From Corynebacterium aurimucosum (lineage in GTDB: Bacteria; Actinomycetota; Actinomycetes; Mycobacteriales; Mycobacteriaceae), in assembly GCF_030408555.1 (NCBI RefSeq), contig NZ_CP047048.1, forward strand, positions 558,001 to 622,000: a stretch of 64,000 nt of DNA. Reading direction: 5' to 3'. This document shows, piece after piece, positions 27,914 to 55,055 of this stretch. A model generated the notes under the pieces. It did not search any database, was not told where the DNA came from, and saw only the letters and a program-made list of their open reading frames with translations. A program made the translations under genes and the position numbers. Each line of letters begins with the position of its first letter. Positions within the stretch are counted from its first letter, which is position 1.

Positions 27914-29050
27914 ATGACGAACCCCAACCAGTTTGGTGAGAACGCCGACAACAGCGATAGCAACGTGGGCGATAACAGCTTTAACGGTTCCCACGGCGAG
28001 AACTCTGGGAACGATAACTTCGGTAGCTTTGGCGGCTACGGCAGCCCCCAGTCCAACAAGGATAGCTCGGCGTCTGGCTGGAATGCCCAGGATTCGAACT
28101 CCGGCTTTGGCTGGGGTGGCCAGGCAGGATACGGCGATTACTCCGAGAACTCCGCTGAGACTTCCTCGTTTGGTAGCGCCTCTTCCCAGGATTCGCAGCC
28201 GGACACTGACCGCGAAGCTAAGGACAGCACGTTTAGCGAAGGCTTTGCTTCTGCTGAGCCCGCATCCGAGTCCGCTAAGGACCAGGACACCCACTCCACC
28301 CAGGACTCCTTTGGCGCCTCCTATGCTTCCTACAACACCGATAGTGGTGCTGGCGCCGAGCATGCCGCTGAGTCGACGAACTCGAACCAGAGCCACAGCG
28401 ACAACGGCTACGGCACTAACGGCTATGGCAACGACTGCTTTGGCGGTGGTGCGCAGACGGAATCCAACCAGGGCCATGGCTTTGGGCAGCAGTCAAGCAA
28501 TGGTTTCGGTAGCCAGGCCTCTCACTCCAACTCCACGTCCGGTTTTGGTAGCTACTCCCAGCAGAACCAGGGCTTCGGTGCACAGGAGCAGCAAGGTTTC
28601 GGCTCCCAAGGACAGCAAGGTTTCGGCACCCAGGAGCAGCAGGGCTTTGGCCAGCAGAACTCGCCCTTTGCGGCCTCCCCGCAGAATCAGTACCCGCAGC
28701 AGGCTGCGCCGAATGGCGGTTCTTCCAAGGGCACGGGATTCTTCAAGGCGCTGTTTGACTTCTCTTTCAGCAACTTTATCACCCTGAAGTTCTCGTCCTT
28801 CATTTATATGCTGCTCGTCATTTTGTCAGCAGTCTTCTGGGTAGGAACGATCCTCTTCTCCTTCGCGTTTTTCGCTGATAGCGTTCTTTTGGGAATCCTT
28901 GCGTTCCTCGGTGCTGTGATCTTCGGCGGAATCACCTTCCTTTTTTACGTCATCCAGTTCCGATTGATCTTGGAGTTCTTCGTGGCAAACATCCGCACCG
29001 CGCAGAACACCGGCGATCTGGTTGCCAAGGCGGATGGCGATAAGGCTTAA
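27914..29050 (+). CDS. DUF4282 membrane protein with long Gln/Gly/Asn/Ser-rich N-terminus
   Basis: 378 residues. About residues 1-270 are low complexity, rich in Asn, Ser, Gly and later Gln/Phe/Gly, with repeats of the QGFG-x-QEQ type (about 214-252). Composition resembles prion-like, phase-separating segments. The last ~110 residues (FFKALFDFSFSNFITLKFSSFIYML ... FFVANIRTAQNT) form a DUF4282 domain with two transmembrane helices. The ATG follows AAGGTCTAAGGA. No known function; the cytosolic N-terminal tail could act as a scaffold. A strong terminator follows. Confidence 0.82.
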   Translation: MTNPNQFGENADNSDSNVGDNSFNGSHGENSGNDNFGSFGGYGSPQSNKDSSASGWNAQDSNSGFGWGGQAGYGDYSENSAETSSFGSASSQDSQPDTDREAKDSTFSEGFASAEPASESAKDQDTHSTQDSFGASYASYNTDSGAGAEHAAESTNSNQSHSDNGYGTNGYGNDCFGGGAQTESNQGHGFGQQSSNGFGSQASHSNSTSGFGSYSQQNQGFGAQEQQGFGSQGQQGFGTQEQQGFGQQNSPFAASPQNQYPQQAAPNGGSSKGTGFFKALFDFSFSNFITLKFSSFIYMLLVILSAVFWVGTILFSFAFFADSVLLGILAFLGAVIFGGITFLFYVIQFRLILEFFVANIRTAQNTGDLVAKADGDKA

Positions 29051-45465: not shown

Positions 45466-46386
45466 ATGACTGCACTTGATATGGACCGAATCCGCGAGGC
45501 GCTGAGCGAAGACTTCGCTGTTATCGATTACACCGAGTCCACTGGCTCCACCAATACCGATCTCATGCAGGCCGGCAAGGTGGCTGATGGCACCGTTTTG
45601 CTGGCTAATGAGCAGGTTGCCGGTAAGGGCCGATTGGGCCGTCAGTGGGTGAGCCCGGCTGGTTCGCAGCTCATCTTTTCCGTTCTCATCCTTCCGGATT
45701 CGTTGGATCACCTCGGTACTTTGCCGCTAGCTGCCGGCTTGGCCGTGACTGATTCCGTAGAGGGTGCGGTACTCAAGTGGCCGAATGACGTGCACATCGA
45801 TGGTAAGAAGCTGTGCGGTATCCTCGCCGAGGCTGGTCCAGTGGGCGAGGCCTTCAAATCTGCTCCGAAGACGGAAGTTTCCAAGGCTGAAATCAACAAG
45901 GCAGAGATCAACAAGGCAGAGATCAACAAGGCAGAGATCAACAAGGCAGAGATCAATAAGGCAGAGATCAACAAAGCCGAGGTCAGTAAAGCTGAAATCG
46001 CCCCCAAGACCCAGTCTGCGAACCCGCCTTCAGCCCGCGTGGTCGTGGGCATGGGCATCAACGTCACCCTGACCCGCGAGGAACTGCCCATCGAGGCCGC
46101 GACATCGCTCGCGCTCGAAGGCCTTGAGACCGACCGCACGCAGCTGGCCATCACCGTGCTGAAGAACCTGCGTCGCCGCATTACCCAGTGGGAGCAGCAG
46201 GACCCACAGCTTTTGGCTGATTACCGTAAGGTGTGTTCTTCCATCGGGCAGGAAGTCCGCCTCGAAGCCCCGGCCGGCGACGTCATCGGCACCGTCGAGG
46301 GCGTGGCCGATGATGGCCGCATCAACGTTGGCGGCGAGTATTACTCCGCGGGTGATGTCATCCACCTGCGCCCGGCTGATAATTAG
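45466..46386 (+). CDS. birA: Biotin--[acetyl-CoA-carboxylase] ligase with pentapeptide-repeat insert
   Basis: 306 residues; BirA monofunctional class with no HTH. Catalytic loop EQVAGKGRLGRQW (GKGRLGRxW, about residues 48-58), substrate strands LKWPNDVHIDGKKLCGILAE (about 103-123) and VVVGMGINV (about 190), plus the C-terminal SH3-like part. Between the two core strands, residues about 136-178 form TEVSK, six AEINK copies, AEVSK and AEIAPK, a low-complexity insert in a loop where ordinary BirA has a short turn. The enzyme biotinylates Lys of AccBC and Pyc. The insert is in frame and the core looks intact, so it should fold. Confidence 0.93.
   Translation: MTALDMDRIREALSEDFAVIDYTESTGSTNTDLMQAGKVADGTVLLANEQVAGKGRLGRQWVSPAGSQLIFSVLILPDSLDHLGTLPLAAGLAVTDSVEGAVLKWPNDVHIDGKKLCGILAEAGPVGEAFKSAPKTEVSKAEINKAEINKAEINKAEINKAEINKAEINKAEVSKAEIAPKTQSANPPSARVVVGMGINVTLTREELPIEAATSLALEGLETDRTQLAITVLKNLRRRITQWEQQDPQLLADYRKVCSSIGQEVRLEAPAGDVIGTVEGVADDGRINVGGEYYSAGDVIHLRPADN
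45871..45999 (+). repeat. 15-bp minisatellite in birA encoding AEINK units
   Basis: Consecutive 15-bp units, GCAGAGATCAACAAG in four nearly exact copies (45901-45960) with flanking diverged copies: ACGGAAGTTTCCAAG (45871), GCTGAAATCAACAAG (45886), GCAGAGATCAACAAA (45961), GCCGAGGTCAGTAAA (45976) and GCTGAAATC (45991). Length change in units of 15 bp would keep the frame. Confidence 0.92.
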
Positions 46387-46465
46387 TCGCCCGCGCTGCG
46401 TGGCGTCTAAGCGTCGACCGGCGAGGCCCCATAGAAGACGCCGTGCTCGACACATGGCGCTATTC

Positions 46466-46583
46466 AAAAGGCGTCTGTCAGAAGGCATCAGTCAAAAGGC
46501 GTCTTTGGGGGCAAAGACACCTTTTGGACGCCTCCACATGGCGTTTTCAGGGGCAAAGACGCCTTTTGACTGACGCCTTTTAG
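46466..46583. repeat. 14-nt-unit repeat cluster with two hairpins (AAAAGGC family)
   Basis: Between birA and the PH-domain gene: consecutive units AAAAGGCGTCTGTC, AGAAGGCATCAGTC, AAAAGGCGTCTTTG (46466-46507). Then the hairpin arm AAAAGGCGTCTTTG (46494-46507) pairs with CAAAGACACCTTTT (46512-46525) across GGGG; a second hairpin is GGCGT/ACGCC near 46540-46564, ending in CTTTTGACTGACGCCTTTT. Same family as 21100-21215, 56344-56437 and 57538-57627. May also act as a terminator after birA. Confidence 0.7.
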
Positions 46584-46670
46584 GAAATGCCATGTGCGAA
46601 GCCTTGGCTGGGCCTGCAAGGCCTAGGACGTGACGTCCTCTTGCCTGGACGGCGGGAGCAGGCAGGTACC

Positions 46671-47863: not shown

Positions 47864-49087
47864 GTGAGTGAACAACACAAACCCCTCGTTACTGTTTATG
47901 GAGACGGCCAGCTTGCACGCATGATGCAGCCGGCCGCCGCAGAGCTCGACATCAGCTTGCGCGTGCTGGCCTCCGCGCCAGACAAGTCCGCCGCACAGGT
48001 GATCCCGGATGTGGTGCTCGGTGACTACCACGATCTCGACGTGCTCACCGCCGCCGCGGAAGGCGCGGATGCAATTACCTTTGAGCACGAGCACGTCCCG
48101 ACGGAGCACGTCGAGCGTCTTATCGCCGACGGCCTCAACGTCCAGCCCCAGCCTTCCGCTCTCCTCTACGCGCAGGACAAACTGTTCATGCGCGAGAAGC
48201 TGGCCGAGCTGGGCGCCCCAGTGCCGCGCTTTGCCGCTATTGAATCGGTGGAGGATGCGCGGGATTTCGCCGCGCTTGTCGACGGTCACGTGTGCCTCAA
48301 AGCCCGCCGCGGCGGCTACGACGGTCATGGCGTGTGGTTCCCGTCAGCGGAGGAGCTGGAGCCGCTGGTAGAAGAGCTTCTCGCCGCTGGTACTCCGCTT
48401 ATGGCTGAGGAAAAAGTTTCCCTTACTCGCGAGCTGTCCGTGCTCGTCGCCCGCCGCCCCTCCGGCGAGGTCAAAGCCTGGCCGGTCACCGAGTCGGTGC
48501 AGCGAGACGGCATCTGCGCCGGGGCTTTTGCCCCAGCCCCGAACTTGTCGGCAGCGCTCGCGGAGCGCGCCATGCAGGTGGGCATCAAGGTAGCCACCGA
48601 GCTGGGCGTTACGGGTGTGCTGGCAGTGGAGCTTTTCGCTTTTGCCACGAAGCAAGACGCCGGCTGCATCATCGCGTCCGCTTCAGGCGCGCCGGGAGCG
48701 GTTGTGGAAGAAGATATTGCGGTCAACGAGCTGGCCATGCGCCCGCACAACACCGGCCACTGGACGCAGGATGGCTGCGTGACCTCGCAGTTCGAGCAGC
48801 ACCTGCGCGCCGTGCTGGACCTGCCGCTGGGCTCCACCGCGCCATTGGCGCCCGTAACGGTCATGGCCAATGTGCTGGGGGCTGAGGAGGATCCGCAGAT
48901 GCCCATGCCGCAGCGCGTCCGTGAAGTCATGGAGCGCTACCCGCAGGCGAAGATCCACCTCTACGGTAAGGACCACCAGCCGGGTCGCAAGATCGGCCAC
49001 GTCAACGTCGTTGGTGAGGACGTGGAGGAAACGCGCCGCATCGCCCACGATGCCGCCCACTTCCTCGTCCACGCGCAGTGGGCGTAA
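47864..49087 (+). CDS. purK: N5-carboxyaminoimidazole ribonucleotide synthase
   Basis: 407 residues from GTG 47864 (AAAGGGTGAGTG context; an ATG at 47825 would reach into alsD). ATP-grasp fold: VYGDGQLARMMQPAAAELDI, EHEHVPTEHVERL, 'LKARRGGYDGHGVWF' (ATP loop, about 145), and 'NELAMRPHNTGHWTQDGCVTSQFEQHLRA', the usual purK signature. It carboxylates aminoimidazole ribonucleotide in purine synthesis; the product is taken by PurE, encoded 99 bp downstream. A hairpin covers its stop codon. Confidence 0.97.
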   Translation: MSEQHKPLVTVYGDGQLARMMQPAAAELDISLRVLASAPDKSAAQVIPDVVLGDYHDLDVLTAAAEGADAITFEHEHVPTEHVERLIADGLNVQPQPSALLYAQDKLFMREKLAELGAPVPRFAAIESVEDARDFAALVDGHVCLKARRGGYDGHGVWFPSAEELEPLVEELLAAGTPLMAEEKVSLTRELSVLVARRPSGEVKAWPVTESVQRDGICAGAFAPAPNLSAALAERAMQVGIKVATELGVTGVLAVELFAFATKQDAGCIIASASGAPGAVVEEDIAVNELAMRPHNTGHWTQDGCVTSQFEQHLRAVLDLPLGSTAPLAPVTVMANVLGAEEDPQMPMPQRVREVMERYPQAKIHLYGKDHQPGRKIGHVNVVGEDVEETRRIAHDAAHFLVHAQWA

Positions 49088-49154
49088 GCCCACTGCGCAC
49101 TCTTAAGCCCACAGCGCACTCTTCAGACCACTGCGCACTCTTAAGCCCGCAGCG
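49073..49154. repeat. Hairpin over the purK stop and three 19-bp tandem repeats
   Basis: GCGCAGTGGGC (49073-49083) and GCCCACTGCGC (49088-49098) form a perfect 11-bp stem with loop GTAA, containing the purK stop codon. Overlapping it, three 19-bp units run from 49089 to 49145: CCCACTGCGCACTCTTAAG and two close variants, then a partial unit CCCGCAGCG. Between purK and purE. Confidence 0.8.
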
Positions 49155-54908: not shown

Positions 54909-54968
54909 GCGTGGTCGTGCCGCGTTGTGCGTGGTCGTGCCGCGTTGTGTGTGGTCGTGTCACGTTAT
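54909..54968 (+). repeat. Three 20-bp tandem repeats upstream of the acyl-CoA dehydrogenase
   Basis: GCGTGGTCGTGCCGCGTTGT is repeated exactly at 54909-54928 and 54929-54948; a third copy at 54949-54968 differs by four bases. It lies between the TetR start and the dehydrogenase start, where the promoter(s) and operator should be. Confidence 0.85.
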
Positions 54969-55055
54969 GTGTGAGGCACTTGACAGCCAATGGAGGGTCA
55001 GGTCACAATTAGGGCTAATAGCCATTCGTATTGCCTGTTTATTGGAGAACTCACC

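Follow-up and report, generated by a model that had tools for sequence, protein, structure and literature searches.

In the 64,000-nucleotide stretch of DNA analysed here (the window), birA encodes a predicted biotin-protein ligase whose catalytic domain is interrupted by an array of pentapeptides (Table 1). Both BPL domains, catalytic and C-terminal, are present and score above the Pfam cut-offs (PF03099, BPL_LplA_LipB; PF02237, BPL_C). These are its only two Pfam domains; the catalytic match begins at residue 23, and the N-terminal DNA-binding domain is absent, in keeping with Group I. The motifs GKGRLGRQW, KWPND and KKLCGIL are all found in this putative ligase. Its close homologs carry the source names C. 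aurimucosum and C. guaraldiae, and M. tuberculosis BirA chains are among its best solved relatives. BirA is expected to be needed for growth. In its own genome (2.74 Mb, Corynebacterium) the protein is the single match. BirA of C. glutamicum is likewise described as monofunctional (PMC3398298).

Table 1. Coordinates of birA and of the elements in and around its insert, in window positions.
Feature	Position	Strand	Basis
birA, monofunctional (Group I) biotin-protein ligase, 306 aa	45466..46386	+	ORF, Pfam
Conserved strand G118-I-L-A-E-A123 just before the insert	45817..45834	+	sequence
N-terminal linker GPVGEAFKSAPK	45835..45870	+	sequence
Unit 1, TEVSK	45871..45885	+	sequence
Units 2-7, six AEINK	45886..45975	+	sequence, Tandem Repeats Finder
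Unit 8, AEVSK	45976..45990	+	sequence
Partial unit 9, AEIAP	45991..46005	+	sequence
C-terminal linker KTQSANPPSA	46006..46035	+	sequence
Conserved strand RVVVGMGINV after the insert	46036..46065	+	sequence

The array as a DNA repeat

Between GILAEA and RVVVGMGIN the order is GPVGEAFKSAPK, TEVSK, six AEINK and AEVSK, followed by AEIAPKTQSANPPSA. Eight full units, each exactly 15 bp, cover 45871-45990 in birA. An earlier note on this DNA had read the same units from the letters alone; the end that it gave to the array, 45999, falls inside the partial ninth unit, which runs to 46005. Tandem Repeats Finder reports 45882-45985 with a period of 15, 6.9 copies and 92% matches. The 15-bp periodicity is far above chance, with a best lag-15 self-match of 82 out of 90 positions, whereas 20 first-order Markov shuffles of the window reached 38-47. 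A search of its own genome at E up to 10 found no second copy of the array, and a search by pattern, with its codons guessed, returned no match.

Three consecutive copies are identical at the DNA level, and for same-peptide units of the window array the mean difference over 15 pairs is 1.33 nt, whereas those in most other arrays with such pairs are 2 to 4 nt apart. The window array is younger than most others, although L006, L017, L022 and L025 are also low in this difference, on one or two pairs each. Taken together, the three identical copies and the low mean difference make a recent local expansion in this strain plausible, as had been suggested.

An open frame of 157 aa lies opposite the array on the minus strand (45708-46181), and its product would contain a hydrophobic LLISA repeat; this frame is probably a by-product of the array codons. 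Just after birA, 46460-46610 carries a dispersed palindromic repeat with 23 matches at about 15 places in the genome, itself included, which looks like a REP- or MITE-type element; the region 46440-46600 folds to -80.4 kcal/mol (z -7.8). A 19-bp repeat of 3.4 copies (49085-49148) extends from the end of a purK-like ORF into the gap before the next ORF; besides itself, the genome gave a single further match to it, of 24 bp, in reverse orientation at that position. A 20-bp repeat of 3.2 copies (54911-54973), the region of which occurs once in the genome, is flanked by a minus-strand TetR-like ORF and an acyl-CoA-dehydrogenase-like one (both named by eye). Finally, a 24-bp coding repeat of QQGFG type is located at 28574-28641, in the low-complexity N-terminal region of the ORF at 27914-29050.

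Site, length and distribution of the insert

The alignment to M. tuberculosis BirA is interrupted between residues 146 and 151 of chain 3l1a. In E. coli BirA, dimer loop II is the loop joining beta6 and beta7 and is described as promoting ligand-induced dimerisation, while in M. tuberculosis BirA, reported to be monomeric in solution, it is reduced to a two-residue turn, Q148-P149 (PMC2821413). Given the break in the M. tuberculosis match and the beta6-beta7 placement of dimer loop II, the array is this turn in enlarged form, here in a ligase without a repressor domain. As such, the earlier placement of the array in a loop between two core strands holds, and the M. tuberculosis alignment puts it at the equivalent of the dimerisation loop. 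Gly/Ser loops occupy the same turn in L029, L030, L110 and L111. In BirA of Arthrobacter cryoconiti (L062) an unrelated insert of 49 residues is found there, which means that this turn has accepted inserts more than once.

Loop lengths were compared in two sets of database proteins. For the window protein, the best 120 of 2524 homologs were taken and 119 were parsed (the pattern did not catch P0046), with the loop measured from PVGEA up to the strand that follows the array; loops of 45 (2 proteins), 50 (3), 55 (7), 60 (77), 65 (28), 70 (1) and 80 (1) residues were found, so that 60 or 65 residues account for 105 of the 119. For the C. macginleyi protein, 120 of the 6255 homologs found among 8000 scored candidates yielded 119 parsed proteins (P0196 was missed), with loops of 27 (3), 42 (30), 47 (56), 52 (18), 57 (11) and 62 (1) residues. 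More than one loop length is present in 9 of 83 identical-flank groups of the first set and in 8 of 91 flank groups of the second. Proteins identical to the window BirA outside the loop (from the RIR motif on) carry five, six or nine AEINK units, and P0010, with the same flank, carries four AEINK and one ADINK. Furthermore, among four chromosome-sized contigs source-named C. tuberculostearicum, one encodes a protein of 279 aa and three encode one of 284 aa. Tandem unit number, then, differs between close relatives, as in a coding VNTR.

Every length step within each set is five residues, though it should be noted that a database of intact proteins cannot reveal frameshifts. Because lengths differ in whole 15-bp steps the frame is kept, just as the earlier note had expected of a 15-bp unit, and across related species array length varies rather than being fixed. 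The lower end of the range is informative as well. Single-unit proteins make up three of the 119 parsed in the C. macginleyi set, one of them source-named C. macginleyi, and at locus L054 in a genome of this species the BirA loop likewise holds one unit. A search of that genome for a second ligase found a single ligase match only. One unit in C. macginleyi, together with no second ligase match, indicates that many units are not essential for a working ligase, and the array is thus not needed for a working enzyme, ligase activity here being predicted.

Within the genus, a BirA match was obtained in 200 of the 201 genomes searched, and at least 28 of these 201 Corynebacterium genomes carry arrays (loops L001-L028 were read). 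Units of the form x-E-hydrophobic-polar-K are present in 27 of the 28 array loops, three of which (L020, L027 and L028) mix them with EFKSx units; L026 has EFKSx units only. Twenty further Corynebacterium loci show an FKSG-type loop (L109), two Gly/Ser loops (L110 and L111) and 17 short turns. Named carriers include C. striatum, C. minutissimum, C. aurimucosum, C. tuberculostearicum, C. kefirresidentii, C. flavescens, C. phocae and C. phoceense. In a tree of 54 distinct BirA cores with the loop removed (rows with identical cores merged; the seven unparsed rows L115-L118, L120, L122 and L127 left out), array rows fall inside one supported group of 41 rows (98/92), which also holds Gly/Ser loops, FKSG-type loops, the short turns L112 and L113, and C. 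macginleyi. Array presence requires at least four changes on this tree, and its history may consist of one gain and several losses, or of repeated gains. Among the publication titles listed for BirA or biotin ligase with pentapeptide, tandem repeat or Corynebacterium, none describes this array.

Selection on the peptide and fold of the insert

From 45 loci we obtained 30 distinct arrays, whose units were cut in frame from the PKTE anchor. The first unit was left out of the count since this anchor fixes its T and E in nearly all arrays; terminal five-mers, 15 each of the AE.AP and AVGG types, and the mixed or other arrays L020 and L026-L028 were omitted too. In the resulting 150 units, with i as the central residue, position i-1 is Glu in 150/150 and i+2 is Lys in 150/150, while i is hydrophobic throughout (V97, I34, L17, M1, F1) and i-2 is A in 125, T in 14 and V in 11. 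Divergence between units of the same array amounts to a pS of 0.903 and a pN of 0.102, with pN below pS in all 30 arrays; including the first units (180 units) gives 0.849 and 0.149, and for comparison the BirA core between species gives 0.521 and 0.110. A pN this far below pS, with Glu and Lys invariant, shows that the pattern is kept by selection and not by recent copying. The x-E-hydrophobic-polar-K pattern is held by purifying selection; unit number is loosely constrained, the peptide pattern is constrained.

So what could such a repeat fold into? At E up to 1, the window loop has 12 matches in the PDB set (E 1.6e-9 to 0.12), all to pentapeptide-repeat or designed solenoid chains, and the HMMER alignment sets A on A, E on D/N/S and I on L. 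Matches other than those named in the next sentence bear names that we take to belong to the same design series as SynRFR24.1. As described in the sources, the designed solenoid SynRFR24.1 corresponds to 4YC5 and a relative of it to 5DNS (PMC6127164), whereas HetL (3DU1), Alr5209 and Np275/276 are pentapeptide-repeat proteins (PMC8145042). The best of these E-values sums weak repeats, a single stretch of the best match never being better than E 0.32. Permuting the order within units leaves no PDB-set match, and a loop with reversed units retains nine weak ones (E 0.086 or worse), seven of which are designed solenoids. Other loops of the family were compared as well: the one AEVNK-type loop tried has its best PDB match at E 0.013, the 104-residue loop matches at E 0.0031 beside unrelated proteins, a TEVTK protein has no PDB match at 0.1, and an EFKSx loop matches IcmE/DotG best (1.9e-10), with QnrB1 and SV2C at E 0.006-0.011. 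Against Pfam, the AEINK loop matched no pentapeptide family, and the EFKSx array L026 reached PF13599 (E 0.0096) and PF25296 (E 5.7e-4), both below cut-off. A PF00805 search of the window's genome returned nothing.

The published description of pentapeptide-repeat proteins asks for at least eight contiguous units, L or F as the central residue, i-2 in A/C/S/V/T/L/I and i-1 in D/N/S/K/E/I/R (PMC8145042). In our arrays both i-2 and i-1 fall within these sets in 150/150 units; the centre is L or F in 18/150 (33/180 with first units, and 0/8 in the window), and the 30 arrays have 4-8 units, the window array having eight and the partial one. Filing the insert as a pentapeptide-repeat protein was rejected: the Pfam cut-offs are missed, and the centre is mostly V/I where the family has L/F. 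An order-wide search with the loop alone gave weak matches in 14 of 149 other genomes (E 1.4e-7 to 9.4e-4). The nine regions read (L130-L138) mostly hold tandem repeats of other five-residue units, such as AEVSD, AEIHQ and AEVER, the repeat of L132 lying in a frame with stops and that of L137 being more degenerate. Of the eight compared to Pfam (L132 omitted), L138 (AEFDR) passes PF00805 and PF13576, L137 has a decapeptide family match below cut-off, and the other six match no repeat family. Hence A-E-hydrophobic five-mers arise elsewhere, and the PDB similarity may be partly compositional. By the Pfam cut-offs, an F-centred array of this form does count as a pentapeptide repeat, and the V/I-centred one of birA does not. 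The AEFDR array of L138, near 1501-1644, lies in a long ORF that also bears a sub-threshold Sacsin-domain match.

Evidence against a solenoid comes from the array itself, in that conservation is higher for Glu and Lys, which would point outward, than for the residues of the putative core, and unit numbers are not multiples of four. Conserved Glu and Lys are two residues apart in both kinds of unit (K-A-E; E-F-K) and would lie on one face if the chain were extended. On balance, a beta-solenoid-like insert is a near-even prospect as judged from the period, the residue pattern and the dependence of these matches on residue order, a disordered one is rather unlikely, and a helical one slightly more so. 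The earlier note had thought the pattern suited to an extended helical hairpin, and an alpha-helical rod or hairpin rising from the turn, held by Glu-Lys pairs from i to i+3, would indeed suit the helix-favoring Ala, Glu and Lys, the mean helix-propensity cost of AEINK (0.344) and the fact that no residues are better conserved than Glu and Lys. However, a hydrophobic residue at each fifth position gives no helix face: the hydrophobic moment at 100 degrees is about 0.02 for the array, near zero because its period is five. Moreover, the interior of the array has no central break at which a hairpin could turn, and TEVTK/AEVTK and GEFKS units are poorer helix formers, with mean costs of 0.452 and 0.540 (Pace-Scholtz propensities). 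With pentapeptide-repeat proteins as the PDB matches of the window loop, a helical rod or hairpin seems improbable, and the amphipathic form finds no footing in the near-zero moment.

Proposed explanation: a tolerated insert at a former dimerisation loop

We propose, at a probability of somewhat under 60% for the explanation in full, solenoid included, that the array is a coding minisatellite specific to one clade and placed where a dimerisation loop used to be, of which the peptide pattern is constrained and the length largely free. In one Corynebacterium group, the beta6-beta7 turn of the single, monofunctional BirA would have taken on this array, gaining and losing units by replication slippage or unequal exchange. 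The turn may have been free to grow because an enzyme without a DNA-binding domain would need no repressor dimer, to whose formation the loop contributes in E. coli. The insert would then project from the catalytic domain into solvent as a separate module. Its most likely form is a short stack resembling a beta-solenoid, in which the small residue and V/I/L would face inward and Glu and Lys outward, and selection would keep it foldable and soluble rather than fixed in length. Most likely, the insert is tolerated and kept well-behaved rather than required.

An alternative is that the array mediates self-association or docks biotin acceptors, unit number tuning the affinity. Its position at the E. 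coli dimer loop, the strong conservation of the peptide and the clustering of lengths at 60 or 65 residues in the window-query set are in line with such a role. Yet near-identical proteins differ in length, C. macginleyi goes down to one unit, and the clustering may merely reflect shared descent, so we regard an interaction module as improbable, on a par with the helical rod. A more specific version, in which the enzyme grew a fast-evolving beta-solenoid at the lost dimer loop and slippage tunes its height and hence contact with itself or with acceptors, strikes us as a long shot; if true, it would be a natural case of a repeat fold born and tuned inside a housekeeping enzyme.

Less probable again is neutral padding, the other suggestion of the earlier note, by which slippage alters unit number in an exposed turn and the peptide is irrelevant. 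Such padding would agree with the different lengths among proteins with identical flanks, with the tolerance of a single unit, and with a turn that hosts the Gly/Ser loops and the 49-residue insert mentioned above. Against this, Glu and Lys are invariant and the centre is always hydrophobic in the face of a pS of 0.903, and homogenisation without selection would lower silent and replacement differences alike; at the level of the peptide, neutral padding is unlikely. An assembly artefact, finally, can be set aside as very improbable: short contigs do supply many of the length variants, but the window's exact protein stands for six contigs, the longest being the window's own of 2.72 Mb, chromosome-sized contigs differ in length, and arrays with silent divergence recur across species.

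For this one enzyme, database proteins provide a natural series of repeat inserts from 1 to 11 units long, to which the Gly/Ser loops, FKSG-type repeats and mixed arrays add related forms. The series could help to show how a loop gives rise to a repeat fold, and the system as a whole whether the loss of a dimer interface makes room for new structure. At the least, the birA array may serve as a strain-typing locus in these corynebacteria.

How does this insert compare with known systems? Dimer loop II of the bifunctional E. coli BirA occupies the same beta6-beta7 turn, in an enzyme that, unlike the array ligase, has a DNA-binding domain, and the turn spans two residues in M. tuberculosis compared with 42 to 104 in array-bearing loops (27-29 with one unit). 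Pentapeptide-repeat proteins (PF00805, the Rfr quadrilateral beta-helix; QnrB1 and the luminal domain of SV2C) share the period of five, a small i-2 and a hydrophobic i. In contrast to their L/F centre, that of the array is V/I in 131/150 units, with Glu and Lys invariant; furthermore, the 30 arrays have 4-8 units, and the insert sits in an enzyme turn and stays below the Pfam thresholds. With coding minisatellites (VNTRs) in bacterial genes, lastly, the array shares a 15-bp frame-keeping unit and length polymorphism; unlike those, it is located within the catalytic domain of a housekeeping enzyme that is present in one copy, and its peptide unit is under purifying selection.
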